Positions 1 to 37,384 of a stretch of 64,000 bases of DNA are shown here, piece by piece. Numbering within the stretch: the first letter of the stretch is position 1; the number at the start of each line of letters is the position of its first letter. The position numbers and the translations under genes were made by a program. A model generated the notes under the pieces. The model was not told the DNA's origin, did not search any database, and saw only the letters and a list, made by a program, of their open reading frames with translations. Source of the DNA: Chloroflexota bacterium (lineage in GTDB: Bacteria > Chloroflexota > Dehalococcoidia > UBA6926); assembly GCA_026713485.1 (NCBI GenBank), contig JAPOOK010000003.1, positions 1 through 64,000 of the forward strand. The letters run 5' to 3'.

Positions 1-2
1 CC

Positions 3-470: not shown

Positions 471-535
471 GCTGCTTCCGAGCCCGGCACATCTGAGATC
501 TCGTTGCGTACACCTCCTTGGTGTATGCTTGGTGT

Positions 536-1455: not shown

Positions 1456-1461
1456 CCCCCC

Positions 1462-3140: not shown

Positions 3141-3252
3141 ACCGCCTGTTCACCCTCCTCATCTGCTCTAGATTGTAGGGGGTGAGAGAGGTTGACGAGG
3201 CACAAGGGCCGAGCAAAACTAATGTACTGCGGAAATATGGAGGTAAGGACTC

Positions 3253-3999: not shown

Positions 4000-4011
4000 A
4001 GTTAACTCCTC

Positions 4012-4803: not shown

Positions 4804-4934
4804 AGAATTACCTGATCCTCGTGTACTTGTGCAGCGTCTCGGATTCCAGCATACGAACACTGAACGCCCTATGCACGCGCCGCTTTAGGTGACGCAGTAG
4901 CCTTCTGGTGGTTGAGGGGTAGAATTAACGAACG

Positions 4935-5882: not shown

Positions 5883-5893
5883 TAGGAACTGCC

Positions 5894-7267: not shown

Positions 7268-7935
7268 TGGATTTTCTTGACGAAATAACCCTCGCCGGCA
7301 TCGCTCTCACGCTCGCCGCCGCCCTCGGCAGCTACCTGCTCGGCGCAGTGCCAATTGGCCTGCTCGTGGGCAAAGTTTTTGGAAGCGTTGACGTTCGAGA
7401 ATCCGGCAGTGGTCGTACAGGGGCCACCAATGTCCTTCGGACGCTCGGGTGGAAAGCCGCCGTCCCCGTCGTCCTGCTCGACCTTTTCAAAGGGTCTGTA
7501 GCAGTGATTGCCAGCGGATTCATTGCGGACACGCCCGGCGAGGTTGCCGGCGCCGTGGCCGTTGTTGTGGGTCACAGCCGATCGGTCTTCATTGGGTTCG
7601 GCGGCGGCAGAGGCGTTATACCGGCAGGCGGTGCGGCGCTTGCCCTCGTCTGGCCCGCCGCAATCATCGGCACGATCGTCGGCATCCTAATCATCGCCCT
7701 CACACGATACGTCTCGCTCGGCTCCCTGCTCGGCACTGCGACCTGCGTGGGCATCATGGTGGCGTTCGCCGTAATGGGCTTGGCGCCACCGTTATTGGAC
7801 GCCGTCCCCTTTATCGTCGGACCGTTAGCCGTTGTGGGCGGCACGATCATCATCTACGCCCACCGCGACAACATCCAGCGCCTGATCCGTGGCACCGAAC
7901 GCCGATTCGGCCAACCGGCTGAACCGACTGCCTAG
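7267..7935 (+). CDS. plsY: glycerol-3-phosphate acyltransferase PlsY
   Basis: SYLLGAVPIGLLVGK, RESGSGRTGATNVLRTLG, VVGHSRSVFIGFGGGRGV; TAATG overlap with der. Confidence 0.93.
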   Translation: MDFLDEITLAGIALTLAAALGSYLLGAVPIGLLVGKVFGSVDVRESGSGRTGATNVLRTLGWKAAVPVVLLDLFKGSVAVIASGFIADTPGEVAGAVAVVVGHSRSVFIGFGGGRGVIPAGGAALALVWPAAIIGTIVGILIIALTRYVSLGSLLGTATCVGIMVAFAVMGLAPPLLDAVPFIVGPLAVVGGTIIIYAHRDNIQRLIRGTERRFGQPAEPTA

Positions 7936-8002
7936 CCAGTAGAGCCCTCCCTCTAGCCCTATATGGGACAATTAAGCGAATGCTTCCGGCAGGAGGTCTC
8001 GT

Positions 8003-9034
8003 GTGAGCGGGCAGACACAAAAGGCGGCGGTCATTGGCACCACCAGTTGGGGCACGACCCTTGCACTCCTGCTTGCGCGTGAGGGTGCAGATACACTCCT
8101 GTGGTCCCGTACTGAAGAGACTGCCCGCCGTATGAATGAGGCCGGCGAGAACGTCGACCGCCTCCCCGGCTTTCCCTTTCCCGATAATCTGCACGTCACT
8201 CCGTACATGTCTCAGGCCGTTTCAGATGCAGACTTGATCATCGTCTGCGTGCCGTCCCCCACATTCCACCAGAACCTGCAACGCCTAAGGGAGGGCAACC
8301 CCTCACGCGATGTTCCCATCGTCAGTGCCACCAAAGGTCTCGACCGCGTTGACGGCTTACGTATGAGTGAAGTCTTTGCCCAGGAGATGGGGCAGGACGC
8401 CCTGCGCCAATACTGTGTCATCTCCGGACCCAACCTCTCTCATGAAGTCGCCGACGGGCTCCCGTCCTCTGCGGTTGTCGCATCTGCCACGGAGGAGATG
8501 GCGGAACGTGCCCAGGCGGCGCTGACGTCAAAAGTGTTTCGCGTCTACGCAAGCACAGACGTTCCCGGAGTCGAACTTGGCGGGTCATTGAAGAACATTG
8601 TGGCCATCGGGGCCGGAATGATTGACGGCATGGGATTTGGGGACAACGCCAAAGCCGCATTCATCGCGCGCGCCATCGCGGAGATTACACGGCTTGGCAT
8701 CGCAGCGGGCGCTCAGCCCCTGACGTTTAGTGGACTTGCCGGTGTAGGTGACCTCGTGGCTACGTGCTACAGCCGCCTGTCGCGTAATCGGTATGTGGGT
8801 GAGGAGCTGGGGCGCGGACGAAACATCGCGCAAATCATTGAAGACCTGAACGAGGTCTGTGAAGGCTACAACACCACGCCCGCCGCGATCCGCCTTGCCG
8901 AGCGTCTCAACGTAGAGACGCCCATCACGTTGGAGACTCACCGCGTCCTCCATGAGGGGCTGAATCCGCGCGAGGCGATAGAGTCCCTGATGGGACGTCC
9001 TGCCACCACCGAATTCCCCGGTGAAACGCTGTAG
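8003..9034 (+). CDS. gpsA: NAD(P)-dependent glycerol-3-phosphate dehydrogenase
   Basis: VIGTTSWGTTLALLLAREG, SGPNLSHEVADGLPS, GGSLKNIVAIGAGMIDG, LAGVGDLVATCYSRLSRN. Confidence 0.96.
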   Translation: MSGQTQKAAVIGTTSWGTTLALLLAREGADTLLWSRTEETARRMNEAGENVDRLPGFPFPDNLHVTPYMSQAVSDADLIIVCVPSPTFHQNLQRLREGNPSRDVPIVSATKGLDRVDGLRMSEVFAQEMGQDALRQYCVISGPNLSHEVADGLPSSAVVASATEEMAERAQAALTSKVFRVYASTDVPGVELGGSLKNIVAIGAGMIDGMGFGDNAKAAFIARAIAEITRLGIAAGAQPLTFSGLAGVGDLVATCYSRLSRNRYVGEELGRGRNIAQIIEDLNEVCEGYNTTPAAIRLAERLNVETPITLETHRVLHEGLNPREAIESLMGRPATTEFPGETL

Positions 9035-9154
9035 CGAGCAGATACACGCGCCGCCCCACGGCATCCTGTACTATTAGAGGCAGTCACAGATTGCCGCGGC
9101 TTCTTACGCAGTCCCGCCCCGGCATACAAAAATGAATCGCGAAAAGAACCAACT

Positions 9155-10288
9155 TTGATACAGGTAGCCTCAATCGACCTGGACGACTTATCTGCTGAGA
9201 GCAGAGGCGATCCCTCCGGGATGGGCGGACACATAGCGGCATTCCCACTGCGTGTCTTGCAGGGTTGGAACGGCGTTGCAGCTCTCGCGCTGCCAGACGA
9301 ATATCGTGCCGTTCGCCACGTCGTCGTTCAGGGCATGGGCGGCTCCGCCATCGCGGGAGACATTGCCGCCGAGGCTGTGGACTCCCTTCGTGAGCCGGGG
9401 ACGGCTGGGGCGCAGATCAGTGTCTTTAGGGACTACGGCGCCCACCCATCCGTCGGCCCTGACAGCCTCGTGGTCGTCATGAGTCACTCCGGTCGTACCG
9501 AAGAGGCGCTCTCAGGAGTGGAGGCCTCACGCCTGCGTGGGGCAAAGCTCATCGTGATGACCGGCGGCGGACAGCTTGGAGAGACCGCCCGGGACATGGG
9601 CATCCCAATCGCCATGTTGCCGGAGAATGGCGGCCCCCCACGCACCTATCTCCCGTATGCGCTCGGCGCAATGCTGAGGATCTTTGTCGACCTCGGCATC
9701 GCTCTGCCTAACACGGAGCGTGCCTTGATCGATGCCGTCACCGAGCTCGAATCGCGGCAGCCGGACTTTGACGCCAGTTGCAACCGAACCGAGAACGGCC
9801 GGGTCAATCCCGCCAAAGACTTGGCGCGTGCGCTTTCTGGCCGGATTCCCGTCATCGTCAGCGCGCGCGGCCTTGCTTCCGCCGCGCGCCGCTGGAAGAC
9901 GCAAGTGAATGAGAACGCCAAGACACCCGCATGGACTGAAGAGTTGCCGGAGATGCATCACAATGCCATCGTCGGCTTTGAACAGACTAATCTCAGTGAC
10001 AACCTCGCCATCGTCCTGCTTGGACCGCCGTCAACTGCGCCGAACAGCCTCCATGACCGCTATGCGATTTCCAGGCGAATCCTCAGAGACCTCGGCGTGC
10101 CCGTCCACTGGCCTGCCCTGAGCGGCGAGACTCCACTCGCGCGTCTCCTGGAGGCGGTATTGCTGGGCGACTACGTTAGCTACTACATGGCGCTGGTGAA
10201 TGGAATCGACCCCACACCCACAGTGCCGCTGGACAGCATCAAGGCGCAGATTCGCCGCTCGACCCAAAACGAAAACCATGGAGAATAA
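9155..10288 (+). CDS. bifunctional phosphoglucose/phosphomannose isomerase
   Basis: VVQGMGGSAIAGDI, VVVMSHSGRTEEALSG, TQVNENAKTPAWTEELPEMHHNAIVGFE. Confidence 0.92.
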   Translation: MIQVASIDLDDLSAESRGDPSGMGGHIAAFPLRVLQGWNGVAALALPDEYRAVRHVVVQGMGGSAIAGDIAAEAVDSLREPGTAGAQISVFRDYGAHPSVGPDSLVVVMSHSGRTEEALSGVEASRLRGAKLIVMTGGGQLGETARDMGIPIAMLPENGGPPRTYLPYALGAMLRIFVDLGIALPNTERALIDAVTELESRQPDFDASCNRTENGRVNPAKDLARALSGRIPVIVSARGLASAARRWKTQVNENAKTPAWTEELPEMHHNAIVGFEQTNLSDNLAIVLLGPPSTAPNSLHDRYAISRRILRDLGVPVHWPALSGETPLARLLEAVLLGDYVSYYMALVNGIDPTPTVPLDSIKAQIRRSTQNENHGE

Positions 10289-10300
10289 TCCTTCACTCTT

Positions 10301-10873
10301 ATGGCTACACGCATAGGCATCATCTCAGACACCCACATTCCAAGTTCAATTCCGGAGCTCTGGCCGGAGGTTGAGATTGTCTTCAAGGATGTCGATCTTA
10401 TCCTCCATGCCGGAGACCTCATTACGACCGGCGTCGTGGACTGGCTGGAGCGCATTGCCCCGACGTACGCTGCCGAGGGCAACCATGATTACGGCCTCAG
10501 CGAGGTCGATGAGCGTATCCGCCCCAAGTGGTTCATGGAAATCGAGGGTTACAAGCTGGGCCTCGTCCACATCATTGACGGCTGGGGCACCCGCACCGCC
10601 ACAGATCTGGTGAAGACATATCTCGGGACTTTGGCGGACATCGTTGTCTGCGGCGACAGCCATTTCGAGTTCATCCGCAAAGAAGACGGAATGCTTATCA
10701 TCAACGGCGGCAGCGCCACCTACCCCCACAACCGCGAGGCTCGCCTCGGCCATGTGGTACTGCTGGACGTTGAACGGGGCAAGGAACCCGAAGCCCGCAT
10801 CATTGACCTGACCGAATACTCGATCGACGGCACGGACGGCCGAAACCGCTACTCCCGCGGAAGAACCCGATAA
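10301..10873 (+). CDS. YfcE-type metallophosphoesterase
   Basis: IGIISDTHIPSS, LILHAGDLI, AEGNHDYG, VVCGDSHFEF, LIINGGSATYP. Confidence 0.9.
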   Translation: MATRIGIISDTHIPSSIPELWPEVEIVFKDVDLILHAGDLITTGVVDWLERIAPTYAAEGNHDYGLSEVDERIRPKWFMEIEGYKLGLVHIIDGWGTRTATDLVKTYLGTLADIVVCGDSHFEFIRKEDGMLIINGGSATYPHNREARLGHVVLLDVERGKEPEARIIDLTEYSIDGTDGRNRYSRGRTR

Positions 10874-10875
10874 CG

Positions 10876-10898
10876 ACGGCGCGCGCCTACGCGCGCGC
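10876..10898. terminator. GC-only hairpin, possible terminator
   Basis: GCGCGCGC-CTAC-GCGCGCGC just after the stop of the phosphoesterase gene; no T-run, so function uncertain. Confidence 0.4.
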
Positions 10899-10946
10899 AA
10901 TCATCATTGCTACGGACTAGGAGTCTAAGCAAGAAGCTCTAAAGAG

Positions 10947-10985
10947 TACCCTCTCCCCCAAGGAGAGAGTTACGGTGATGGGCGG
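10947..10985. repeat. dispersed hairpin repeat (CCCTCTCC...GGAGAG + ACGGTGATGGG type)
   Basis: ACCCTCTCCCCCAAGGAGAGAGTTACGGTGATGGGCGG; resembles elements at 24243 and 43764. Confidence 0.55.
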
Positions 10986-10990
10986 GAAAA

Positions 10991-11311
10991 CTAGTAGCGT
11001 GGGCGACCGCCGCCGCCTCCACCGCCGCCGCCTCCACCGCCGCCGCCTCCACCACCACCGCCGCCTTCGCGGCGATCGCGGGCCTCATTCACCGTCAACT
11101 GGCGGCCTTGGTGTTCGTGGCCGTTCAGCGCGCCGATGGCGACCTCTGCCTCAGAACCGTTCGGCATTTCCACGAATCCGAAACCACGTGAGCGCATAGA
11201 GTATCGGTCAATGATTACCTGCGCTGAAGAGACCTCTCCGTGCTGCTGAAAAAGTTCCTGCAAATCCGAATCTGTCGCCTGAAAACTCAGGTTTCCGACA
11301 TATATCCTCAT
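10991..11311 (-). CDS. RRM-domain RNA-binding protein with poly-Gly tail
   Basis: MRIYVGNLSFQATDSDLQELFQQHGEVSSAQVI...RSRGFGFVEM (RNP2/RNP1) followed by about 20 Gly and GRPRY. Confidence 0.92.
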   Translation of the reverse strand: MRIYVGNLSFQATDSDLQELFQQHGEVSSAQVIIDRYSMRSRGFGFVEMPNGSEAEVAIGALNGHEHQGRQLTVNEARDRREGGGGGGGGGGGGGGGGGGGGRPRY

Positions 11312-11460
11312 TCGTACCGTCTCCCCGTCTCTAGCTACTGCTATCCCAGACTCCAGCAAAGCCATTCCGTGAGGGGGCGGCCGGCAATCTGTTGTCGGAA
11401 CCCGCTAAGTATACCGTGTACGAACCCATATAGCTCTCATTTTGACTGCCGGGTTACTCA

Positions 11461-11649
11461 ATTGACAGTGAGTATCAAGAGCTAACTTCGGGAAAAGTCA
11501 CGATTGTATTGAAAGCGAGTATCACTAAAGCAATAAGCCAATTCCATTGTCTGAGTGCGGCCAAGGCCATGTCTTCGCAGAAAGAGCAAGGACTTACACA
11601 GGAGACCGACACAAACTATTGAAAGTATGTATCAACACATGGAATTGGC
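11461..11649. repeat. three 17-bp iteron-like direct repeats plus an 11-bp inverted repeat in a non-coding region
   Basis: ATTGACAGTGAGTATCA (11461), ATTGAAAGCGAGTATCA (11508), ATTGAAAGTATGTATCA (11618); GCCAATTCCAT (11537-11547) versus ATGGAATTGGC (11639-11649). Confidence 0.75.
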
Positions 11650-11672
11650 CTGAAGTGAGGGCCGTGTGTCGG

Positions 11673-12494
11673 CTAACCTGCCGTCACCTCTCGCAAGAAT
11701 TCCAGCAACGCGTCGTTGAACGCATCCGCAGTCTCCACGTTGGGAAAGTGACCTGCCCCCGGGAGAATAACGAGCTTCGACTGTGCAATGGCCCGGTGTA
11801 TACGGACCGAGCCGCCCGGCGGCGTCAGGCGATCCTGGTCACCGCAGATGACAAGCACGGGGCACGTGAGTCCCGGGAGATCCGGCGCGACCGGGTGCGC
11901 ACCGAGTTCAGGCCCTGAAATACGCACGCCCTCTGCGTACACCTCGGGAGCGTTGCGCTCCGCCGTCGCGGTGGTGAATGCCCTGATGTCTTCCAGGTTG
12001 GACTCGATGAAGGGATCGCCCCAACTGCGCTGCGGATCAAACGGAAGTGCGCCGATGCCCTGTTCCCGAACCGTCTTGAGCATCCCGTCCCATCCTGAGA
12101 GGTATTCCTGCTTGATCTCCGCGGACGTGTCCTGGATGACCAGCGACAGCGTCTGCTCCGGGTAATCGATCGCGAACTGCTGTGAAACAAGCCCGCCAAG
12201 AGAATGCCCATGGATATGCGCTGCGCCGATGCCGATCGCCTTGAGCAGCTCCGAAAGGTCCTTGGCGAGCGTCCATCGGGAATACGCGCCGTCTGTAACC
12301 GGCACGCGCTCCGACTGACCAAATCCGCGCATGTCCCACAGCATCAGGTGGAATTCTGCGGAAAGCGCCTCAATCTGATTCTCGTACCCGCGCCCGTGAC
12401 CGCCAAGCCCGTGCGTCATCACAAACGTCGGCTTTGACGAGTCCCCGAACAGCTCATAAAACAGCTCGACCCCATTTGCCTTGATGTGCGGCAT
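11673..12494 (-). CDS. alpha/beta hydrolase
   Basis: FVMTHGLGGHGRGYENQ, HIHGHSLGGLVSQQFA nucleophile elbow, GAGHFPNVE catalytic His. Confidence 0.9.
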   Translation of the reverse strand: MPHIKANGVELFYELFGDSSKPTFVMTHGLGGHGRGYENQIEALSAEFHLMLWDMRGFGQSERVPVTDGAYSRWTLAKDLSELLKAIGIGAAHIHGHSLGGLVSQQFAIDYPEQTLSLVIQDTSAEIKQEYLSGWDGMLKTVREQGIGALPFDPQRSWGDPFIESNLEDIRAFTTATAERNAPEVYAEGVRISGPELGAHPVAPDLPGLTCPVLVICGDQDRLTPPGGSVRIHRAIAQSKLVILPGAGHFPNVETADAFNDALLEFLREVTAG

Positions 12495-12541
12495 GATTCA
12501 ATCCTCCTTTTGCGCAGTGTCCTTGTTCAGAGCCCGGCGTT

Positions 12542-13633
12542 CTACCCCAAGTCCAGACGCAGATTCAGTCGCTGCGCCACATTCCTCAGATTCTCAACAG
12601 AGTCCATGTACAACGGTATGCCATTCCGCTTGCGATCCTCAATCGTCTCGGCCTCGATATCTCCCGGAACTAGCACACTCTCAACGTCCGGCAGTGGCGG
12701 CGTCTCTCGCAGGGCAGTCATGTAGTCCGACATCGACTGCTTGAAACTGTCCGCATCCGCAAACGCGTCAATCCGCATCGCGCCAAAGAAATGGGCGGAC
12801 TGATACCCACCCGCAACCCCGGATCCCGCAATCGCCAGCCCCGGCCCCATGCCGGACAGCACGCCGCAGAGGATGTCCACGATCATCGCGAGGCCGTAGC
12901 CCTTGTATGACGAATGCTCCAGGTCGCTGCCCAACGGCAGGATGCGCCGCCCGCCCGGCCCGCGTGCCGGATTCCGCACAGGCTGCAGGTCATCCGTCAG
13001 GCCCCATCCCTCGGGAGCAAGCTTGCCCTGCCGATGATACGTGTCAAACTTTCCCGCCGAAACGACTGACGTTGCGGCATCAAAGACGAACGGCGTACCG
13101 TCCGCGGTTGGCGCGGCCATAGCGATTGGATTGGATCCAAGCCGCGGTTCCGCTCCGCCTGCCGGCAGCACGATCGGCCCGGTGTTCGTCATGCTGATGC
13201 CGATCATGTCGTGCTCGAGTGCCTGCGTCGCATACACGCCGGCGGCCCCAAAGTGGCGGCTGTTCGCCACCGTCACCCATCCGGAGCCGACCGCCCGCGC
13301 CTTCTCGATGGCAAGATTCATGGCGCGGACACCCACGCTGAGCCCTAGCCCTCCGTCGGCGTCTATGGTGGCCGTTGACGGTGATTCCGCGCGCACAATC
13401 CACTCGGGACGCGCATTCACCAACTCGTTCTCAAGTGGAGTCAGATAGAAGCGGTCGAGCCGCGCCATACCATGCGAGCCGATGCCTCGCAGGTCCGCCT
13501 CGATGAGCGTGTTGGCGGCGTTGGCGGCGTCCTCATCTGAAACGCCAAGAGCAATGAATGCCGCCACGGCAAACTCCCGCAGCGTCATTTCCGGGACGCG
13601 GATTGTTTGAGCTAGGGCCTCAGTCGAACTCAT
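12542..13633 (-). CDS. Ldh family oxidoreductase (malate/L-lactate dehydrogenase type)
   Basis: GIGSHGMARLDRF, VANSRHFGAAGVYATQALEHDMIGISMTNT, PRLGSNPIAMAAP, SYKGYGLAMIVDIL. Confidence 0.9.
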   Translation of the reverse strand: MSSTEALAQTIRVPEMTLREFAVAAFIALGVSDEDAANAANTLIEADLRGIGSHGMARLDRFYLTPLENELVNARPEWIVRAESPSTATIDADGGLGLSVGVRAMNLAIEKARAVGSGWVTVANSRHFGAAGVYATQALEHDMIGISMTNTGPIVLPAGGAEPRLGSNPIAMAAPTADGTPFVFDAATSVVSAGKFDTYHRQGKLAPEGWGLTDDLQPVRNPARGPGGRRILPLGSDLEHSSYKGYGLAMIVDILCGVLSGMGPGLAIAGSGVAGGYQSAHFFGAMRIDAFADADSFKQSMSDYMTALRETPPLPDVESVLVPGDIEAETIEDRKRNGIPLYMDSVENLRNVAQRLNLRLDLG

Positions 13634-13655
13634 GGCGGCAGGCGTCATCAGTGAC

Positions 13656-13680
13656 GGGGCGCTCTCATTGAGAACGCCCC
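13656..13680. terminator. hairpin between two minus-strand genes
   Basis: GGGGCGcTCTCattGAGAaCGCCCC. Confidence 0.45.
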
Positions 13681-13696
13681 GCGCCTGTCTGTTTCC

Positions 13697-14596
13697 TTAA
13701 CCGGGGCGCGCCTCGCGCACGCGGCCCGCCATCTCCTGGTCAACTTCCTTTGGCCACGAGCGCTTGTTCGGATCCATGACCTTGATGCTGTAGGATCCGA
13801 TGCCCTCGATTTCGATGGTGCCCGTCTCGCCGTCCTGCAGCGGGCCGATTCCCTGGTGGTTGGTGCCAAGCGCAATAACGTCGCCGGGCAGCAGTGTCAT
13901 TACCTTCGTCGCCCACTCGATCAACTCAGGGATCGTGTGCTCCAGGTCGCTCGTGTTGTAGTCGTGGCGTGGCTGATCGTCCACCCAGTACTTGATATCA
14001 AGCTCGTGAGGGTTTTCGATCTCGTCCGCCGTGACGATGCACGGGCCCATCGGAGCGCACGTGTCATAGGACTTCTGGATCATCGTCGGCCCGCGGCCGA
14101 TGCCGGCGCGGGGTGAGACGTCCATGAACGCCGTGTAGCCGAAGATGGAGTCCATCGCCTCCTCTTGCGGCACATGCTTGCTCCGCTTGCCGATGACGAG
14201 CGCCAACTCCGCCTCGTGGTGGCATATGGTGAAGGGCGTGTTTGGCAGTACGACGGTGTCGCCCGGGCCGATGATTGCCTCTGGCGACTTGAGGAACATG
14301 TCGATAGGGAAGGCGTCCCGATCCTGCCCTTCCTTATAGTTGCCGAAACAGCAGATGAGCTTGCGCGGTCGCGGCAGCGGCGCGCGCAGCTGCACCGTCG
14401 ATACCGGCACCCCTCCACCGGAATCCGCGATGTCCTCAAGGTCATCGCGCACAGATGCAAAATCCTCAATGAGGTTGATCATCACGTCCTCGACGTGAGG
14501 CCCCATGTAATCATCCGCCAGCCCGCCCAGCCCGATGACGTTGCCATCGACAAGCAGGCCGGGTCGGAAATCGTTGTACATCACCAGTTTCATTCC
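13697..14596 (-). CDS. fumarylacetoacetate hydrolase family protein
   Basis: KLICCFGNYKEG, HHEAELALVIGKRSKHV, GYTAFMDVSPR, LLPGDVIALGTNHQGIGPLQDGETGTIEIEGIG; start probably MKLVMYNDF. Confidence 0.9.
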   Translation of the reverse strand, partial: GMKLVMYNDFRPGLLVDGNVIGLGGLADDYMGPHVEDVMINLIEDFASVRDDLEDIADSGGGVPVSTVQLRAPLPRPRKLICCFGNYKEGQDRDAFPIDMFLKSPEAIIGPGDTVVLPNTPFTICHHEAELALVIGKRSKHVPQEEAMDSIFGYTAFMDVSPRAGIGRGPTMIQKSYDTCAPMGPCIVTADEIENPHELDIKYWVDDQPRHDYNTSDLEHTIPELIEWATKVMTLLPGDVIALGTNHQGIGPLQDGETGTIEIEGIGSYSIKVMDPNKRSWPKEVDQEMAGRVREARPG

Positions 14597-14744
14597 CATC
14601 CCCCTGTATGCGGTCATTCCGCTGTTAGTTCCGTTGCATCATACCGTGTCCGCGTCCCGCACGCGCCATCACAACCCCGCCCACGCCCCTGGCTGTGGTG
14701 GAGTACCCTGCACGAACCCCACAACATACGAGGATTCCACGCGG

Positions 14745-14772
14745 TTATGCACTAGATAGACTGTTATGCACT
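14745..14772 (+). promoter_or_regulatory. two DnaA-box-like 9-mers (TTATGCACT x2)
   Basis: TTATGCACT at 14745-14753 and 14764-14772, 19 bp apart, about 90 bp upstream of dnaN; 8/9 match to TTATNCACA. Confidence 0.4.
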
Positions 14773-14857
14773 TGACCCAAGTCCGCTCAACGCGGGATAC
14801 TCGCACCATATACGGGGGAAGACGGCTCGTTGGCCGTATTTTGGGAGAGACAATTCA

Positions 14858-15997
14858 ATGAAATTCTCGGTTCTCCAGGAGAATCTTCAGCGCGGACTCA
14901 CGACGGTCATGCCGGCGGTGGCAACACGGACAACGATGCCCATTACCACCCACGTCATGCTCCAGGCAGATGAATCCCGTCTGCGGCTTACCGCGACCAA
15001 CCTTGAGCTCTCCATCTCCTGCTGGATCAGCGCCAGCGTGGAGACACAGGGCTCAGTGGCAATCCCCGCCCGCCTCTTCTCTGACTACGTCTCCTCACTT
15101 CAGCGTGATCGTGTTGACCTTGATCTTGATGCGGGAACACGCCAGCTGAATATCATCTCCGGTCGATTCAACACTCATATGAGCGGGCTGGATGCCGACG
15201 ATTTTCCGCCCACGCCCGTCGTCGATGACGGTATCAACGCGGAAGTGCCGCCGGATGTCCTGCGCGCGGGTATTGACCGCGTCATCATCGCAGCCGCCAC
15301 GGAGGATTCCCGCCCCGTGCTGACCGGCGTCCACACGTCCATCGAGGGCGACAGCATCACGATGGCCGCGGCGGACGGCTTCCGTCTCGCCGTTCAAACG
15401 ACCAAGCTACCGCAAGAGGTCGGCGAAAGCGTCGATCTCATCATCCCTGCCAAATCCCTGCGCGAGCTCAACCGAATGCTGTCCGAGCAGGAAATGCCTG
15501 TCCGCGTCACCGTGAATCAGGCCAAGACGCAGGTCCAGTTCCACCTGAACAACATCGTCCTCGGCTCGCAGCTCATCCAGGGCAACTTCCCCAACTATCG
15601 GCAGCTCATTCCGGAGTCGTCCAACACGAAAACATCGGTGGAAGTTGCGGACTTTCTCCGCGCCACGAAGACCGCCTCCGTCTTTGCCAAGGAGGGCAAC
15701 GGCATCGTCCGCTTGTATATGACTCCCGGCGAGAACGAGATGGCAGGCACCATGCGGCTTGAGGCGCGCTCAGACCAGATCGGCGATCACGAGGGCGTGA
15801 TTGATGCCAACATCGGTGGAGAGGAGGCGCACATCGCCTTCAATCACCGCTATTTGGAAGACGTGCTCGGCGTGCTGAACTCCACGGCGACGCTTGAAGT
15901 CTCAGGCCCCTCCAGCCCGGGCACCATCCGCCCCGCGTCCACGGACGACGGCACGGAATACATCCACGTCGTCATGCCCATGTTCGTCCAGTGGTAG
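14858..15997 (+). CDS. dnaN: DNA polymerase III subunit beta (sliding clamp)
   Basis: MKFSVLQENLQRGLTTVMPAVATRTTMPITTHVML..., RPVLTGVHTSIEGDSITMAAADGFRLA, C-terminal YIHVVMPMFVQW. Confidence 0.96.
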   Translation: MKFSVLQENLQRGLTTVMPAVATRTTMPITTHVMLQADESRLRLTATNLELSISCWISASVETQGSVAIPARLFSDYVSSLQRDRVDLDLDAGTRQLNIISGRFNTHMSGLDADDFPPTPVVDDGINAEVPPDVLRAGIDRVIIAAATEDSRPVLTGVHTSIEGDSITMAAADGFRLAVQTTKLPQEVGESVDLIIPAKSLRELNRMLSEQEMPVRVTVNQAKTQVQFHLNNIVLGSQLIQGNFPNYRQLIPESSNTKTSVEVADFLRATKTASVFAKEGNGIVRLYMTPGENEMAGTMRLEARSDQIGDHEGVIDANIGGEEAHIAFNHRYLEDVLGVLNSTATLEVSGPSSPGTIRPASTDDGTEYIHVVMPMFVQW

Positions 15998-28821: not shown

Positions 28822-29175
28822 CTAGGTAGAGGCCGGTTCCTCGAACCGTTCGATAACCTCGAACTCCAGCGCGTAGACCTCCACTTCGTCCACGGGGCTG
28901 TTGAACTTCTTCCCCTCGCTGAACTGCTCGATCCACGCCGCCTTGTCCGGCCAGCCCTCGGCCAGAGCCTCCTCCCGCGTCATATCGCCGATGCGCTGCT
29001 TCCACACTCGCGTGACGAGAATCTTGGCAAACGGTTTCTCACCGGTCATCGGCGGGCGGCGATAGAGCAGGTGCTCTGCGCCCTCTTTCGCCCGCGCCCG
29101 TGCCCACAGCTTGCGCGCCTGTGATTTCTCGCCCCGCAGAATCAGTTGAGCACTCGGTTCCTTGAACAAAATCAT
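28822..29175 (-). CDS. ASCH-domain protein
   Basis: MILFKEPSAQLILRGEKSQARKLWARARAKEGAEHLLYRRPPM...PFAKILVTRVWKQRIGDMTREEALAEGWP. Confidence 0.75.
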   Translation of the reverse strand: MILFKEPSAQLILRGEKSQARKLWARARAKEGAEHLLYRRPPMTGEKPFAKILVTRVWKQRIGDMTREEALAEGWPDKAAWIEQFSEGKKFNSPVDEVEVYALEFEVIERFEEPAST

Positions 29176-29254
29176 GCGGATACTATACAGGCGTGGCAGG
29201 CCGTCCGGTGGTCACGCCGCAATAAACGGCATTTGACACAGTTGGGAGGTAGTC

Positions 29255-29587
29255 GTGCAGCAGTTTCTCGTGCTGACCGTGGGTCGCGCTTTGGACCCGC
29301 AGGATGGAGATGAACAAACACAGGCATATATGGGTGAGTGGCAGGCGTGGCTGGGCGGCTTGGTGGCTTCCGGCGCGTTGGACTCCGGCAGACCTCTGGA
29401 GCCCGGCGGCAAGGTGGTCGATAAAGATGGCGTCAAAGACTATGTGCCCGAGGAAATTGGCATTGGCGGCTATCTGATCATCAACGCGGAATCCTTGCAG
29501 GACGCTGCGAAGATTGCGCAGGGTTCGCCGCACGTCGCCATCGGTGGAAGTGCAATCATCCGTCCCTGCCTCAGCGTCCCCCAATAA
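29255..29587 (+). CDS. YCII-related/DGPF-domain protein
   Basis: MGEWQAWLGGLVASGALDSGRPLEPGGKVV...GGYLIINAESLQDAAKIAQGSPHVAIGGSAIIRP. Confidence 0.8.
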   Translation: MQQFLVLTVGRALDPQDGDEQTQAYMGEWQAWLGGLVASGALDSGRPLEPGGKVVDKDGVKDYVPEEIGIGGYLIINAESLQDAAKIAQGSPHVAIGGSAIIRPCLSVPQ

Positions 29588-29610: not shown

Positions 29611-29826
29611 CTATGTGTAGATCGCAATAACGACGGCCTCAGTGGGGTCGGACGGGTCTGACGCGAAGGCCACGATGCAGGATCGGCCGGCCAGTAATTC
29701 CGAGGACGGGATGGCCCGGCTGACACGCGCCCCCGTCAGCCACGTCGGCACACTCCCGTCCAACTGAACGTCCGCCGTGAATGACGACGAATAGAATTCC
29801 TTGAGTGTGCCGCGCCTTAGCTCCAT
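29611..29826 (-). CDS. small phage-like protein, possible OB-fold/spike-type (71 aa)
   Basis: MELRRGTLKEFYSSSFTADVQLDGSVPTWLTGARVSRAIPSSELLAGRSCIVAFASDPSDPTEAVVIAIYT; starts 2 nt after the stop of the upstream cassette gene. Confidence 0.5.
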   Translation of the reverse strand: MELRRGTLKEFYSSSFTADVQLDGSVPTWLTGARVSRAIPSSELLAGRSCIVAFASDPSDPTEAVVIAIYT

Positions 29827-29828
29827 GC

Positions 29829-31814
29829 CTACACTCCGCCCAGCTCAATGTCCTGCTGATATACCGGCTGAGACGTGCCGATGTCGTAACGTGTCCTCAG
29901 ACCTGCAACCCGCAGCCGCTCGGATGCCCACCCTACTGACGGCGCGGTGACGGACACGACGTCATGCAGTTGCTGCCCGGCGTTCACGGGAACTGTGATG
30001 CGCGCAAACGGCTGCAGCACGCCGCGTGACCGAAGCTCGGCGTCTGCTCTCGTGGCCACAACCTCCGGCGTAGTCAGAGAGCGATCAACGACCTGCACCA
30101 GGAGACTGCCCACAGATTCCATCTCCCGCTGATTGACTGATTCGGCGATTGCTCCGTGCCCGTAGACTTGCACATGGTTGACAGGGGAAAGGGCGGATGA
30201 ACGCGCGACGTCCAGCAGCGCATGGTCGCCTGGCTCCCCATAGAAATAGACGGCAGGGTCAGTCTCACGCGTACGGATTGCCTCGAGCACGCCATCTGAG
30301 AAACGCAGAACATCCGGCACGCGGGACATCAGGCGGGTGATGGCAACCGCAAGGCTCTCGTTCGGGGAGATTGTGATGGCGGGATAGGTGGCCACGATGG
30401 CGGGGCTTGAGCGTGCGAGCGTCGTGGACATACCCGCCATCGTGAGCAGTTGGCTCAGGATGTTCCACACAGATGCCGTGTGCGCGGGCCACGTGAGTTG
30501 ACGCCGCGCCCGCATTTTGGCCATAAACCACCACGGGTCCTCCGCCTCAAGCACCGTTACAAGGCTGCCCCGCCGCGTCTCGCGCCTTACCTCCCGCACC
30601 CAGTAGCGTTGCGCCTGGCCCGTCTCACGCCCCGTGCCTGTTTCATATCCCCACGCAATGCTGAGTTCGTGACCCAATGGGCCGGAGCCCACGGTAACTG
30701 ACGAATCAAGCTGTGGCCCCTCTGCCAATACGAGTGTTACCGAAGCTCCGCGAGGGGTCTCTTTCATGTCCGCGGCTATGACAGACCCGGAAATATCGAT
30801 CGACGGCGTACCGATGTGCGCTCGCCACACCTCGGACGGTGTCGTCAGCCACGCAAAGGAGGCCTCGGCGGCCAAGGCAGGCCCTGTGCCTCCAATCTGG
30901 CCGAACGGCGTGGACTCGCGCCAACGATGGTCGCGAAAGCGCGCGCCCGCCGAAGCATGCGTTGTCATCGTCTGTGAGTAGCCGGCCGCTCCGCCATATG
31001 CCTCGACGAAGCTGATGCGTGGCCCGTCCGCCGCGCAGACGCCGGGATCCCGATACGTCACATCAGCACCCGGCGCCGAGGCGATCACTTCACGCAGCAT
31101 CGACCATGTTCCCGCCGTCTGAGATGAACCCGCGCCAAGGTTGCACGTCCATACACCTGACGATCTGTTTGACAGTGTCCCGCACGCCACAACCGCCCAA
31201 TCGCCGTCGATGTGACCGCAGGCGATGCCGTCCACTGTCCTCAACGAGTTGGTCCAAGCGGAGGGCGACGACCATGTTCCTGCCGTTCTTGTAATCGAGC
31301 GAACGATGCCCGTTGACTCCGCGTAGAGCAGCAATGCTCCGCCGCCCGCGCCGGACGCCGCCGCAAGCGATGTGACGTTCGCCGCCGCCGTTGCGACCGT
31401 GCGCGGCGAGCCAAACGTCAAACCGTCGTCTCGGCTCGTCCGCTCGCGGATCGTCCTCTGATTGGCTGCAACGTCAAGGACATGGATCTGTCCGTCAATC
31501 TCAGTGACTGCCACGCCTCCGGAGGCGGCCGTCTCCCCAAGGTTCTGCCACATTCCGAACTGCGAATCCGGTCCGGGAGAGGCGATTCGCTGGACAAAGA
31601 GGCCGTTCGGGTTTGCCTGGGCACGGATGCGAATGAGTGAGCCGCCGGACGTTATGACGGCGGCATGTGGTCCGACCGGCTCCTGCCCGGAGGTAAGCCG
31701 TTCCCACCGGAGCTGCGTCACACCGCCCCACCGCTCTGCGAGCATGGCGTGCACGTATGGAACCGCCGCACGGTCGCGCTGAGCAGCCAACAGTGATTCA
31801 GATAGAGAATGCAT
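29829..31814 (-). CDS. phage tail/hub-like structural protein with N-terminal Asp-box beta-propeller-like region
   Basis: Asp-box-like TSRDDGLTFGSP; C-terminal hub-like region with SRVPDVLRFSDGVLEAI...SPVNHVQVYGHG; operon with capsid and connector genes. Confidence 0.6.
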   Translation of the reverse strand: MHSLSESLLAAQRDRAAVPYVHAMLAERWGGVTQLRWERLTSGQEPVGPHAAVITSGGSLIRIRAQANPNGLFVQRIASPGPDSQFGMWQNLGETAASGGVAVTEIDGQIHVLDVAANQRTIRERTSRDDGLTFGSPRTVATAAANVTSLAAASGAGGGALLLYAESTGIVRSITRTAGTWSSPSAWTNSLRTVDGIACGHIDGDWAVVACGTLSNRSSGVWTCNLGAGSSQTAGTWSMLREVIASAPGADVTYRDPGVCAADGPRISFVEAYGGAAGYSQTMTTHASAGARFRDHRWRESTPFGQIGGTGPALAAEASFAWLTTPSEVWRAHIGTPSIDISGSVIAADMKETPRGASVTLVLAEGPQLDSSVTVGSGPLGHELSIAWGYETGTGRETGQAQRYWVREVRRETRRGSLVTVLEAEDPWWFMAKMRARRQLTWPAHTASVWNILSQLLTMAGMSTTLARSSPAIVATYPAITISPNESLAVAITRLMSRVPDVLRFSDGVLEAIRTRETDPAVYFYGEPGDHALLDVARSSALSPVNHVQVYGHGAIAESVNQREMESVGSLLVQVVDRSLTTPEVVATRADAELRSRGVLQPFARITVPVNAGQQLHDVVSVTAPSVGWASERLRVAGLRTRYDIGTSQPVYQQDIELGGV

Positions 31815-31858
31815 CTTTGGTCACCAGGGAGTTGATAGTACTGCCGAGTCCGGACGGC

Positions 31859-32476
31859 CTAGAGTTCGCCGTCGTCTTCCGGGTGGAAGAGCTTTCGCGG
31901 GCGAAAGCCGGAACGCCGGCCGATTCGCGCCAGCTGCAGCTCAAAATCTGCCATCCGCTCCTCCGCCCAAGTCAGGTACTGCCGCCACACGTCCTGTCCG
32001 CCGACGTTGAGACGATTGACCGCGTACGCTGCCCATTCCAGCGCTGCGTACGCTGCCGCGCCGGTGATTACCAGCTCCTCCAGCGCCTCAGGTAGCGTGG
32101 ACGCGGAGTCCGTCAGCCGATGAAGCGCCCCGTAATAGACAGTGACGCTCTCGCCGGCATTCGGCTCGCCGGGCAGGTTCAACAAAAGGGTGTCGCCCCA
32201 TTGGTTGAAGCGCACGCGGGACGGTGGATGCCTGCCCACGGGATATTCGACGGCCTCAACGACAACGCGATCAGTCAGGTCCGCAACCGAAACCTCCCGG
32301 CTTCCGTCTGTCAGTCCTCTTGAGACCGTCTTCTCATGCGGCGCGACCTTGGAGACCTTGGCCAGCGCTCGCTCGATGTGGCGATTCAATACATCGTCTG
32401 TCCAGCGATAGCTGTTGGCGTCCTCATCGTGCAGATCGCGCCGCACGCGCTCTCGCACCTGTCCCAGCGTGCTCAT
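31859..32476 (-). CDS. phage head-tail connector/adaptor-like protein
   Basis: MSTLGQVRERVRRDLHDEDANSYRWTDDVLNRHIERALAKVSKVAPHEK...EELVITGAAAYAALEWAAYAVNRL; AGAAGGA ribosome-binding site. Confidence 0.65.
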   Translation of the reverse strand: MSTLGQVRERVRRDLHDEDANSYRWTDDVLNRHIERALAKVSKVAPHEKTVSRGLTDGSREVSVADLTDRVVVEAVEYPVGRHPPSRVRFNQWGDTLLLNLPGEPNAGESVTVYYGALHRLTDSASTLPEALEELVITGAAAYAALEWAAYAVNRLNVGGQDVWRQYLTWAEERMADFELQLARIGRRSGFRPRKLFHPEDDGEL

Positions 32477-32522
32477 TTTCCGTCCTTCTATCCCGGGCCG
32501 AGTCCTAAAAGATTCCTGGTTG

Positions 32523-32551
32523 GTCGTCCCCGCAGGAACGCGGGGGCCGAC
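32523..32551. repeat. hairpin between capsid and connector genes
   Basis: GTCGtCCCCGCaggaacGCGGGGgcCGAC. Confidence 0.6.
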
Positions 32552-32588
32552 TGTGGGTGTTCTTCTGAAGTAATCGCGAACCGGGAAA

Positions 32589-33479
32589 TCAGTTGCGAAC
32601 CCCGGTAAGCTTGGCGAGCTTCGCCGTGTTGAAAAGGGCAAGGCTTACGTACCACTTCACGCGCGTCCGGCGTGCATCCTTTGTCTCCAGGTTGCCAACG
32701 CGTTCCACCTGCAACCCCCCGGGGGATGTAAGCCCGACGAGACTGCCCTCACCGGCTTGAAAGGCGAATACCGTGGAGCAGTCCGCGCTGGTCCCAACCG
32801 TCTGGGCATCGGAGATCCAATCATTCACGCCCACCGGGATGCCGTCGTAGTACTGCACCATCTGGCCGAGCTCATCGCGGTCGGACACCACGATTCCGGA
32901 ACCGGACGCGCGGGCGAGCGAGTTGAGCTTGCGACGTGAGCGGCGGCTCATCAGGATCATGTCCGGCTTCCCGCCCTTGACCGTGTCGATGAGTTCATCG
33001 AGCTTGTCGAGGGTCAGCGCGCCGCCGTTCTGACCCATCGTGAGGGCCTGATCGCCCGTCGCCAGGATATCGACGCCATCGAACGAGTCTTCGTCCGTAT
33101 CCGCGTTCCCGTTGATGAACGTGTCCTCGAACTTGTGCTGGATGGCACGTGCTTTCAACTGCACAACAGCCGCCTCAAGGTCCTGGATGTTGGATCGTGT
33201 CGTCGCAAGGTAATTGTCCACGTCCGCATCGCCGCCCAGGATGGAGAGCGTCGCCGTCAACTGGGTGAACGTCGGCGTACTCTCCGCCCACGAATCGCCA
33301 ACGCTGTAGAAACTGACCGTCGGCGCGGCCTTTTCCCTGTTGTAGGTGAGACCGTTCCCGACAATCTCGATGAAGGGCAGCGATTGGAGAACAGGGCTGT
33401 CCTTGATCACGGTTTCTATCACGCCCTGCAACAGGACGTCGTTGGAGAGCTTGGCTGCTTCCGTCAATGTGAGGGCCAT
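32589..33479 (-). CDS. HK97-type phage major capsid protein
   Basis: MALTLTEAAKLSNDVLLQGVIETVIKDSPVLQSLPFIEIVGNGLTYNREKAAPTVSFYSVGDSWAESTPTFTQLTATLSILGGDADVDNYL... is a recognisable major capsid protein pattern; SD GGGAGGTG upstream. Confidence 0.85.
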   Translation of the reverse strand: MALTLTEAAKLSNDVLLQGVIETVIKDSPVLQSLPFIEIVGNGLTYNREKAAPTVSFYSVGDSWAESTPTFTQLTATLSILGGDADVDNYLATTRSNIQDLEAAVVQLKARAIQHKFEDTFINGNADTDEDSFDGVDILATGDQALTMGQNGGALTLDKLDELIDTVKGGKPDMILMSRRSRRKLNSLARASGSGIVVSDRDELGQMVQYYDGIPVGVNDWISDAQTVGTSADCSTVFAFQAGEGSLVGLTSPGGLQVERVGNLETKDARRTRVKWYVSLALFNTAKLAKLTGVRN

Positions 33480-33551: not shown

Positions 33552-33627
33552 CCGCAACTCTATGTGGCACATTCATATGTCCTGTCGTGTTGCCGTCATC
33601 ACATATGGGGAGTACCCTTTTCCCTAT

Positions 33628-34971
33628 ATGCAGGACTTAATGCCGGTAATGGGTGTGCTTGCCGGGGCGTTGCTTATCGCCGTAGCAGTGCTGGAATGGC
33701 GCATGAAATTCTTTAGCAACCTCTTTCGCGGAATGTCTGAGCCCGGCAGGAACGAATCGCCGCCGGACACAGCTGTTGCTGACGTTGCCGATTCCGAGGA
33801 AGTTCATGCGGAGGTGGAGCAGGACTTCTGGCGTAGCTTTGAGCGGCAGATTGCCTCTGCCGAGCGGCGCGGGGACAACGAGGAAGCTGAGCGCCTCCGC
33901 CGGATGTATGAATCGCATGAAGAGGCATGGCGCGCCCAGCGGGCGCTAAGGAGCCGAGCCCCTTCTTCGCGGGATGCCGCCTCGCCAAATGCGTTGCAGG
34001 CGCACCTGCGACCGGAGGTGCGTCTCTTGCTGGAGCGTTCTGAAGTTCTCGAAACTTTCTCGGCGCAGGACTGGGTGTTCCGTGGCAACGCCTACCTCGC
34101 TATTGGCGAGGATGACCGAGCGGCGGCCGCATACAGGCAGGCGCTGCGGGAACTGCCGGAAGACCCCCAGATTCGTTTGCTATACGCCGTCTCGTTGCAG
34201 CGGGACGGTGAATTACGCGAATCCCTTCAGATTTATGATGCGTTGGCGTCCGCGAGCGGGGAAAACGAACCGGCGATCCTGGCCGGCCGTGGTAACGTCC
34301 TTGCTGAGATGGACAGATTTGAAGATGCCATTCGGGACTTCGATTCCGTGTTGCGCATCAACGGACAGGACGGCGACACAATCTATGACCGCGCTCGGGC
34401 CCTATCTGATTCCGGCCGGCTTGATGATGCCATCGTCGGCTTTGAGAGCGCCCGAACATACCTGTCCGACAACCCCGATCTGCACAACGATCTCGGCAAC
34501 GCGCTTGCCCTCGTGGGTCGCAATGACGAGGCCCTGCAGTCCTATGATCGGGCCATCAACCTTCGCCCTGCCTTTGCCCGCGCCCACTACAACCGTGGCG
34601 TTACCTACTCCCGCATGGGGCAGTTTGAAGACGCGGCAGACGCCTTTGAGCGTTGCCTGCGTCTTCGGTTAGACATCCCGGAAGCACACTACGGTCGGGG
34701 TGTCGCCCTTGCACGACTCGAACAGTTTCGAGATGCCGTTGCCGCATTCGACCGCGCGGTCGTCTTGCGCCCCGGCTTTGCGGACGCTCTCTTCCACAAG
34801 GCCAGGGCACAAAGCCGACTTGGCCAGACGACAGAGGCATTTGAAGCTCTGCGACAGGCGGTGACTGCCTCTCCCCCTTTGCGTGTACAAGCCAGGACGG
34901 AAACGGACTTTGGCGCGTTGTACTCGGACCCGGACATCGCGTCACGGTTTGAACAACTGATTGCATCGTGA
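33628..34971 (+). CDS. membrane-anchored TPR-repeat protein
   Basis: N-terminal hydrophobic segment LMPVMGVLAGALLIAVAVLEW, then TPR units (e.g. ALALVGRNDEALQSYDRAINLRPAFARAHYNRGVTYSRMGQFEDAADAFERCL). Confidence 0.85.
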   Translation: MQDLMPVMGVLAGALLIAVAVLEWRMKFFSNLFRGMSEPGRNESPPDTAVADVADSEEVHAEVEQDFWRSFERQIASAERRGDNEEAERLRRMYESHEEAWRAQRALRSRAPSSRDAASPNALQAHLRPEVRLLLERSEVLETFSAQDWVFRGNAYLAIGEDDRAAAAYRQALRELPEDPQIRLLYAVSLQRDGELRESLQIYDALASASGENEPAILAGRGNVLAEMDRFEDAIRDFDSVLRINGQDGDTIYDRARALSDSGRLDDAIVGFESARTYLSDNPDLHNDLGNALALVGRNDEALQSYDRAINLRPAFARAHYNRGVTYSRMGQFEDAADAFERCLRLRLDIPEAHYGRGVALARLEQFRDAVAAFDRAVVLRPGFADALFHKARAQSRLGQTTEAFEALRQAVTASPPLRVQARTETDFGALYSDPDIASRFEQLIAS

Positions 34972-35615
34972 AGACGCTTGCCGTCAGCATCGTCGTGGTG
35001 CTCATCTCGACGGTTCTTGGCATCCTGCACCTTGTCGGCCTGATCACAATCCCCTTTTCAGACATCGGCAGCGGCATCGTGACGGGCTTTATCCCGGTAG
35101 CCATCACACTCGTCGCGTTCACAGCCCTGGTCATACTGGCGCTCACCCTCCGCAACCAGGCGGAACTGCGAAACAGGGAGCTTGAATACGAGGAGGCTGC
35201 AGCCGAGGTTGACGCCGTGCGCCGACAAGGGGAGTTGGTCAACGCCATCCGCCTGCGTCTTTCTGCGGACACGGAGGATAGTGAAGAGGAACGACAGGAA
35301 CTGGCCGCAGAGTTGGTGACCGCCGCAGAGCGCTACCACACCGTCCTTCGCGGATTCATCCGCGCCCGCCCGGAGATTGCTCGCATTGAACGGGACGCCA
35401 TTGCGTCCTATCTGGCCGAGGCGGAAGCTGAGCTGCGGCGCCTCCGCGCGGATAGCTCCGCGGCATTTGAGGACATCCCGATTGTCTCTCCATTCACCGT
35501 TCCGGACTCTCCAACCCAAGGGCCTGGACCAATTGATGGTGATGCCTCGCCCCCCGGTAACTCCATTGGCGATGTCCTATCGGAAGGCGCAGACAACGGG
35601 AGACGGCGAGCGTGA
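34968..35615 (+). CDS. membrane protein with two N-terminal hydrophobic segments and a charged helical region
   Basis: SIVVVLISTVLGILHLVGLI...GFIPVAITLVAFTALVILALTLRNQ then charged helices; GTGA overlap with upstream TPR gene. Confidence 0.65.
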   Translation: MKTLAVSIVVVLISTVLGILHLVGLITIPFSDIGSGIVTGFIPVAITLVAFTALVILALTLRNQAELRNRELEYEEAAAEVDAVRRQGELVNAIRLRLSADTEDSEEERQELAAELVTAAERYHTVLRGFIRARPEIARIERDAIASYLAEAEAELRRLRADSSAAFEDIPIVSPFTVPDSPTQGPGPIDGDASPPGNSIGDVLSEGADNGRRRA

Positions 35616-37384
35616 GCCTGCCGCCCCTCCTCGATCTCCGGGGCACCGCCATTGAACTCCTTGACATGCCCCCGGACTGGCCACGCGGCGATGACTGGAT
35701 CGATGCCGACATCCTCGCCTCCCGCCTACCTGACGCCGCCGAGCAGATCGGTATCCTCCTGTACCATCTCCTCGAACAGGCTTCTGATGACAAGAACACA
35801 TCGGACTGGCTCCTTGAGGGACGCGCGTGGGCAAGCACCGGCGATTGGCTTCGTGCCCTCGTCGCCTATGAATACGCGCTTGATGGAGCAACCGACAAGC
35901 AGGCCCCGGATATCTGGTATCTGCGCGGACTGGCGCTCATGCGACAGTGGCAGTTCGATGCGGCCGTTGAATCGTTCGATTTTGCGCGCCAGAATCGCAA
36001 GATCATCGGCAAAGTGTTCTATGCAAGCGGCGTGTCCCTCTTGGCGCTGGCCAGACCGCAGGATGCCCTACGCGCATTCGATAGGGTCATCGCCGCTGAC
36101 TCAGACAACGTGGCCGCCATCACAGGACGCGCCGCGGCGCTGGCGGAACTGAGTCGATTTGACGATGCTCTACTGGCCATGGAGAGTATTCTGCGGCTTG
36201 GCTCTGACCATCCCGCTCGCGTCCTCAACAACCGCGGCAACGCACTCGTCCGGCTGCGTCGTATCGAGCCTGCCTTCGCCAGCTATCGACGTGCGATTGA
36301 AATCGATCCGAACCTGATCGAGCCGAAGGTCAACTCCGGCAACGTCTTCATGCTGGCCGGCCAGCCTCAGCAAGCGCTGACATCGTTCCAGGAGGCGCTG
36401 CACGATCATGAACCCCTGCCTGGGTTGCACGCGAACGTTGCCGCCGCCCTGACGGAGCTGGAACGTTACGATGAGGCGATTGCGGCATGTGACCGCGCCA
36501 TCGCCCTTGAGCCCGGCCACGCTCGCTCCCTGTCCACCAAGGGTCGAGCCCTGCTGGCCGTCGGCCGGGCTGAGGACGCCCTCGTTGCGCTGCAGGACGC
36601 CCTTCTCAGGCGACCTGATTACATCGAAGCGCTCGTCTATCGCGGCCTCGTCCTCAATCAGCTCGATCGGCTCGATGACGCACTCGGCACGTTCAACCTC
36701 GCGCTCCAATTGGCGGAACGACATCCGGACGCCCACCACGGACGTGGCATCGTCCTATACCGCAAGGACTTGCTGGGTGACGCGCTTAGCGAGTTTGAGC
36801 GCGCCGTGGCCATTGAGCCTCGCCACGCAGACGCGGAGAACAGCCGCGGCAACGCCTACATGGAGTTGCAGGACTATGCCGCGGCGCTGGAATCATACAA
36901 CCGCGTCCTCACGTTGCGTCCTGATGACCCGGACGCGCTGAACAACCGTGGCAACGCGCTCGCGCAGATGCGCCGCACCATGGAGGCCATCGATTCATTT
37001 GATACCGCGCTCCGTGTCGACCCGAATCACGCTGATGCCCTCTACAACAGGGGCGTTGCCTTCGCCGACGTGGGGATGCTCACGCAGGCGCTCGACTCAC
37101 TGAACGCATCGGTGCAGGCGCGCCCCGACGATTCCTCGGAGGCCCTGTTCTGGTACGCACGTGTGCTTGGGCGGCAGGGACGAGCGGAACTGGCACTGAA
37201 CGCCCTGCGTGCTGCCGTCGCCTCCAACGAGGAAGTCAGGAGCTGGATCTGGGGCCAGGAAGATTTCGACTCACTAGAAAACGATTCCCTCTGGGGCCGC
37301 CACTATCAGGCCCTGCTCAGAGGCCGCGAAACGCGGAGCACAACGGGCAACGGCCAACAAGACAACGGGACTAACGCGAAATAG
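35612..37384 (+). CDS. large TPR-repeat protein
   Basis: Many TPR units (ALLAVGRAEDALVALQDALLRRPDYIEALVYRGLVLNQLDRLDDALGTFNLAL...); GTGA overlap with upstream gene. Confidence 0.88.
   Translation: MSLPPLLDLRGTAIELLDMPPDWPRGDDWIDADILASRLPDAAEQIGILLYHLLEQASDDKNTSDWLLEGRAWASTGDWLRALVAYEYALDGATDKQAPDIWYLRGLALMRQWQFDAAVESFDFARQNRKIIGKVFYASGVSLLALARPQDALRAFDRVIAADSDNVAAITGRAAALAELSRFDDALLAMESILRLGSDHPARVLNNRGNALVRLRRIEPAFASYRRAIEIDPNLIEPKVNSGNVFMLAGQPQQALTSFQEALHDHEPLPGLHANVAAALTELERYDEAIAACDRAIALEPGHARSLSTKGRALLAVGRAEDALVALQDALLRRPDYIEALVYRGLVLNQLDRLDDALGTFNLALQLAERHPDAHHGRGIVLYRKDLLGDALSEFERAVAIEPRHADAENSRGNAYMELQDYAAALESYNRVLTLRPDDPDALNNRGNALAQMRRTMEAIDSFDTALRVDPNHADALYNRGVAFADVGMLTQALDSLNASVQARPDDSSEALFWYARVLGRQGRAELALNALRAAVASNEEVRSWIWGQEDFDSLENDSLWGRHYQALLRGRETRSTTGNGQQDNGTNAK

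Follow-up and report, generated by a model that had tools for sequence, protein, structure and literature searches.

A candidate gene transfer agent of Dehalococcoidia encoded at three separate host loci

A four-gene phage cassette in a Dehalococcoidia genome was found to be one part of a multi-locus, host-inherited phage-particle system, and we consider it likely that this system works as a gene transfer agent (GTA). An earlier note on the same DNA had left three options, a domesticated particle-forming cassette, part of a dispersed GTA system, or a phage remnant that has not yet decayed. The dispersed GTA is best supported, by the presence of packaging and scaffold genes elsewhere in the genome, conserved loci, purifying selection and class-wide co-occurrence, and the other two are less so. 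The bacterium thus probably makes its own DNA-carrying particles, and we describe the system as GTA-like, a candidate GTA: the formation of particles, the packaging of random DNA and its delivery are predictions from the genes, and the comparison with RcGTA covered its chains in the PDB.

The capsid locus

The cassette lies in the window, that is, the whole stretch of 64,000 nucleotides analysed, which belongs to a 1.9 Mb assembly (G000; 72 contigs, 91% complete). Four intact minus-strand ORFs in tight order had been described in it, with gaps of 112, 44 and 2 nt, Shine-Dalgarno sites before the first two genes and cellular genes on both sides, and all of this was confirmed: the sequence GGAGGTG lies ahead of the capsid gene and AAGGA ahead of that for the adaptor, host TPR genes (33562..37384, plus strand) form one boundary of the locus, and ASCH (minus strand) and YCII (plus strand) genes form the other (28822..29587). 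The first ORF (32589..33479, minus strand) encodes a major capsid protein of 296 aa with the HK97 fold and of the epsilon15 gp7 type (phrog_212, E 6e-71), the only capsid gene in G000. The protein exceeded the curated cut-offs of the Pfam families Phage_capsid, GP7 and SU10_MCP and scored 208 bits against the NCBIfam model MCP_gp7_epsi_15 (cut-off 75); against the PDB, the single sequence was unmatched and the capsid profile gave a marginal match. The second ORF (31859..32476, minus strand, 205 aa), previously labelled a connector, is correctly so named, as it is a head-tail adaptor of the SU10 type that scored above the cut-off of PF24175 (SU10_adaptor).

The remaining two proteins, of 661 aa (29829..31814, minus strand) and 71 aa (29611..29826, minus strand), had no family match (for the larger, none above 0.1), and they were characterised from AF2 models. 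Foldseek aligned the model of the larger protein, built from 27 homologues (pLDDT 90, pTM 0.84), with the hub fold as found in Mu gp44, VgrG and contractile-injection baseplates; separate matches, superposed with large rmsd, were to the Photorhabdus PLL/PHL propeller lectins. The match of this confident model to phage hub structures bears out the earlier label of hub, and we read the protein as a tail hub of the gp27/gp44 fold with an inserted lectin-like beta-propeller (approximately residues 45-335). The rate of evolution is slightly higher in the propeller half than in the hub half, and a tblastn search with the hub against described phages matched nothing. The 71-aa protein was modelled as a five-strand barrel (pLDDT 91), for which the structural matches were mostly generic OB folds, including a Mu baseplate chain and P2 gpV; it is a probable tail tip. 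An OB-fold ORF follows the hub gene throughout the class, and in two relatives (L115 and L084) the OB domain runs on into a longer C-terminal part that looks fibre-like by eye.

Locating the packaging and scaffold genes

Profiles built from related loci located the packaging and scaffold genes of G000 on two other contigs. TerL (C22:4807-6183; E 5e-173, above the Terminase_6C cut-off), the portal (C22:3004-4296; E 1e-193, above the SPP1_portal cut-off) and the scaffold (C52:19716-20240; E 2e-27) are each the sole copy in the genome. The TerL and portal matches on C22 ruled out a genome devoid of packaging genes, and the match on C52 ruled out the suspected loss of the scaffold. Thus, the earlier observation that there is no terminase or portal holds within the window, and the nearest 29 kb or so on either side of the capsid locus contain no packaging gene, since the whole 64-kb window is free of one; genome-wide it fails, as does the description of the cassette as being without packaging genes, because TerS, TerL and the portal are all on C22. 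The same note had reasoned that packaging genes present elsewhere as an ordinary prophage would speak against its reading; they are indeed elsewhere, but not in a prophage-like form. An ordinary prophage, a contiguous element with an integrase, was ruled out by the split over three contigs and by the lack of an integrase homologue in the neighbouring stretches examined. A prohead protease is not expected for a scaffold-type head.

The gene order on C22 is TerS, a 109-aa ORF, TerL, a cysteine-rich helix-turn-helix protein and the portal, with a Rex-type repressor gene and the ATP-synthase operon as neighbours; on C52, the scaffold gene adjoins an SbcD-like exonuclease gene (the host gene names on both contigs were read off the protein sequences, without a family search). 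The TerL protein has a Walker A-like motif (ARQAGKNE), a Walker B motif (LLEIDE) and acidic nuclease residues. The TerS proteins are 109-162 aa long and align with their family profiles from about position 66-124 onwards, and a search of them for a helix-turn-helix or other DNA-binding domain detected none. GTA small terminases are generally reported to lack a DNA-binding domain (PMC11841831), and a TerS of this kind would make the choice of DNA unspecific. The helix-turn-helix protein, which in this family of loci is invariably found between TerL and the portal (L132, 4332-4889), could act as a regulator or contribute the DNA binding. Two further small ORFs are conserved: the 109-aa ORF between TerS and TerL (L132, 6243-6572), which has a coiled coil and a hydrophobic C-terminus and is holin-like by eye only, and a 60-aa ORF just upstream of TerS (L132, 6951-7133).

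Conservation, selection and descent

The earlier note had proposed looking for the cassette at the same place in related genomes and estimating dN/dS on orthologues. For this, two congeneric species were compared. In G002, the host genes next to each of the three loci are those of G000; in G001, the neighbours are the same for the parts covered by its contigs, the portal being cut by a contig end. At the TPR boundary of the capsid locus, the neighbours are shared with G002, and the first TPR gene with G001 also. No homologue of the integrase of related phages was present near the loci in the genome stretches examined. Nei-Gojobori pairwise estimates of omega, which are approximate at such dS, were low for every gene. 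In the comparisons of G000 with G002 and G001, respectively, they were 0.06 and 0.08 for the capsid (congener range 0.06-0.09), 0.03 and 0.14 for the adaptor (0.03-0.15), 0.15 and 0.21 for the hub (0.15-0.22), 0.11 and 0.13 for TerL, and 0.17 and 0.17 for the scaffold; the portal, compared with G002 only, gave 0.10. For G000-G002, dS was 0.5-0.7, near the values of flanking host genes; for G000-G001, it was mostly 0.9-1.3. A pair of closed genomes (G086-G272) gave an omega of 0.07 for the capsid, 0.09 for the adaptor, 0.18 for the portal, 0.23 for the hub and 0.32 for TerL. These results indicate that the three loci are kept intact by purifying selection.

Among 100 relatives, the capsid gene was present in 46, TerL in 60 and the portal in 54, mostly as one copy; 39 had all three and 36 had none (Fisher p 1e-9 to 3e-17 for co-occurrence, uncorrected for shared ancestry, most genomes being of different genera). 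The fullest clusters (L190, L191 and L196) run TerS-TerL-HTH-portal-scaffold-capsid-adaptor-hub-OB amid host genes. Host-type genes separate the portal from the scaffold in L194, and toxin-antitoxin-like genes (by eye) lie between the same two genes in the otherwise intact cluster L190 (9664-10681). In other relatives, the distance between modules ranges from a few kb to several hundred: the capsid and TerL genes are about 600 kb from each other in the closed chromosomes G168 and G198, 112 kb separate portal and capsid in G065, and two TerL copies lie 44 and 115 kb from the capsid in G072. Two full-length TerL copies were found in a few genomes (G072, G183 and G328). An intact capsid gene was present in seven of the eight sampled genomes of genus g65, which is taken as Dehalogenimonas. 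The capsid gene is broken in G049 and G099, and these together with G018 and G054 have broken or partial sets. In the closed genomes G143 and G018, which we take to be Dehalococcoides, a common deletion (L246, 6472-8534, and L148, 7022-9127, respectively) removed the capsid gene and fused the portal to hub residues; TerS and TerL have an omega of 0.07-0.10 there, and the hub fragment is also under constraint. In a sample of 301 genomes drawn from the whole phylum, 92 had a TerL of this family, including nearly every sampled genome in some families; outside the class, the matches could be either GTA-like loci or phages.

With the outliers G087 and G036 left out, the capsid tree shared 8 clades with the rpoB tree and the TerL and portal trees 11 each, out of 24-27, against a mean of less than 0.4 when names were shuffled, and the shared clades were mostly at family level or slightly deeper. 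TerL and portal distances correlated with those of rpoB; capsid and adaptor distances did not, and integrase-bearing relatives (L077, L043, L067, L084 and L089) were scattered over a larger capsid tree. On these trees, recent descent is vertical, and deep history may have included several captures or replacements, a possibility raised by the capsid and adaptor not tracking rpoB and by the scattered integrase-bearing relatives. Some IMG/VR contigs (L058-L062), which lack an integrase, fall inside the Dehalococcoidia capsid clade and may be host fragments labelled as virus.

One of the integrase-bearing relatives, L077 (IMGVR_UViG_3300029267_002955, 1-14875), has an exact terminal repeat of 144 bp and is thus apparently a complete circle of 14,875 bp. 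It encodes an integrase, HNH, TerS, TerL, portal, scaffold, a capsid protein 61% identical to that of the window, adaptor, hub and OB protein; no ORF other than the hub would fit a tape measure, and a tail-tube gene is also absent. Apparently, then, a related phage makes do with this structural set, so that the dispersed set looks complete; the window genome is short of mobility genes alone, as a domesticated particle should be.

Interpretation and known systems

If the proteins act as their families do, the scaffold and capsid protein would assemble a procapsid on the portal, and TerL, together with a TerS that has no detectable DNA-binding domain, would load the head with host DNA. The adaptor would then close the small head and bear a short tail consisting of hub and OB-fold tip. 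The particles would be released, bind a cell-surface glycan through the propeller of the hub and deliver the DNA to relatives. As the genes are dispersed over at least three distant places, the system's own genome is likely not packaged whole.

A domesticated particle might instead do another job, for example killing or signalling among kin, forming a shell or interfering with phages. The hub does resemble those of contractile-injection baseplates and bears a lectin-like propeller, and the constraint on TerS and TerL after the loss of the capsid in G018 and G143 suggests that parts can serve another role. However, TerL, TerS and the portal are otherwise kept and constrained together with the capsid, an empty shell or a tail weapon would need none of them, and the loci have no linked gene for a sheath, tube or toxin; we regard such a role as unlikely. 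It is more unlikely still that the loci are slowly decaying remnants of old prophages without a present function. Such decay would account for the broken or partial sets in several relatives, and gene content, in which GTAs and remnants are alike, does not distinguish them (PMC11841831). It does not sit well with genes that are intact in three congeners (apart from the contig-cut portal of G001) and have an omega well below 1 at a dS of 0.5-1.3, with an intact capsid gene in almost all genomes of g65, or with unlinked genes that are retained or lost jointly across the class.

The interleaving of integrase-bearing relatives in the capsid tree and the duplicate TerL genes of three genomes could also be explained by recurrent integration of a small active phage, each locus being a fresh or fragmented prophage. 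Very little probability attaches to this, since the same loci and neighbours occur in three species (in G001 as far as its contigs cover), family-level clades agree with rpoB, the copy number is mostly one, and the genes of a prophage would not scatter across hundreds of kb. Several observations nevertheless count against the GTA reading. The constraint on TerS and TerL in G018 and G143 is not predicted by a pure particle function unless the capsid loss is recent. The capsid genes of G049 and G099 are broken, a k-mer search found no promoter motif common to the three loci, an unsystematic search identified no lysis gene, and the behaviour of the capsid and adaptor in the trees points the same way.

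It is quite possible, if a little short of probable, that Chloroflexota carry an ancient, widespread GTA whose ancestor was a minimal phage of 15 kb that had no tail-tube genes, with its head, packaging and scaffold loci separate and held by selection. Few GTAs have been described, from a small number of lineages, and we know of none in Dehalogenimonas or many uncultured lineages; no description of a GTA from Chloroflexota or Dehalococcoidia was found in the open-licence literature. Dehalococcoidia matter for dehalogenation and for the subsurface and marine carbon cycle. If the GTA reading is true, it would add to the known GTAs a deep bacterial phylum and a new phage ancestor whose gene set is unusually small, and would offer a possible route of DNA exchange in dehalogenating, subsurface and marine organisms. 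The idea is testable in culture, as there are closed Dehalogenimonas genomes with the set, and Dehalococcoides-like genomes provide natural loss lineages. The findings also suggest that virus collections may contain host-encoded fragments of such loci.

The criteria proposed for GTAs are phage-derived particles, endogenised genes, vertical inheritance, packaging of mostly random host DNA, incomplete packaging of the agent's own genome, and delivery (PMC9662315). Here, the genes are fully endogenised, at three loci that are embedded among host genes and keep their positions in congeners, and they have diversified with the host within the genus and at family level. TerS shares the GTA trait of having no detectable DNA-binding domain (PMC11841831). 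The proteins are derived from tailed phages; they are known from genes alone, which counts against the GTA reading, the particle, its packaged DNA and its transfer all being predicted. The system resembles RcGTA (Rhodogtaviriformidae), the genes of which are spread over five loci (PMC9662315), in having structural and packaging genes of tailed-phage origin at multiple loci, no integrase, and conservation in a large bacterial group. It differs from RcGTA in its phage ancestry (an epsilon15/SU10-type head), in its phylum, in being recognised so far only as genes, and in its set, in which no tube or tape-measure gene was found; the PDB matches of the capsid, TerL and portal profiles included no RcGTA chain. 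With encapsulins it shares an HK97-fold shell protein retained by the cell, but it keeps a portal, terminase, scaffold, adaptor and hub and has no linked cargo enzyme, and an encapsulin was ruled out by the phage capsid family membership and the co-occurrence with portal and TerL. Podoviruses of the epsilon15/SU10 type have the same capsid and adaptor families and a scaffold-based head without a protease gene, whereas here a Mu/T4-type hub carrying a propeller takes the place of the podovirus nozzle as tail protein, and the system is dispersed and inherited by the host. L077 has TerS, TerL, portal, scaffold, capsid, adaptor, hub and OB protein in common with it; the phage is compact, with an integrase and HNH, and the system of the window has neither and is set out over three loci.
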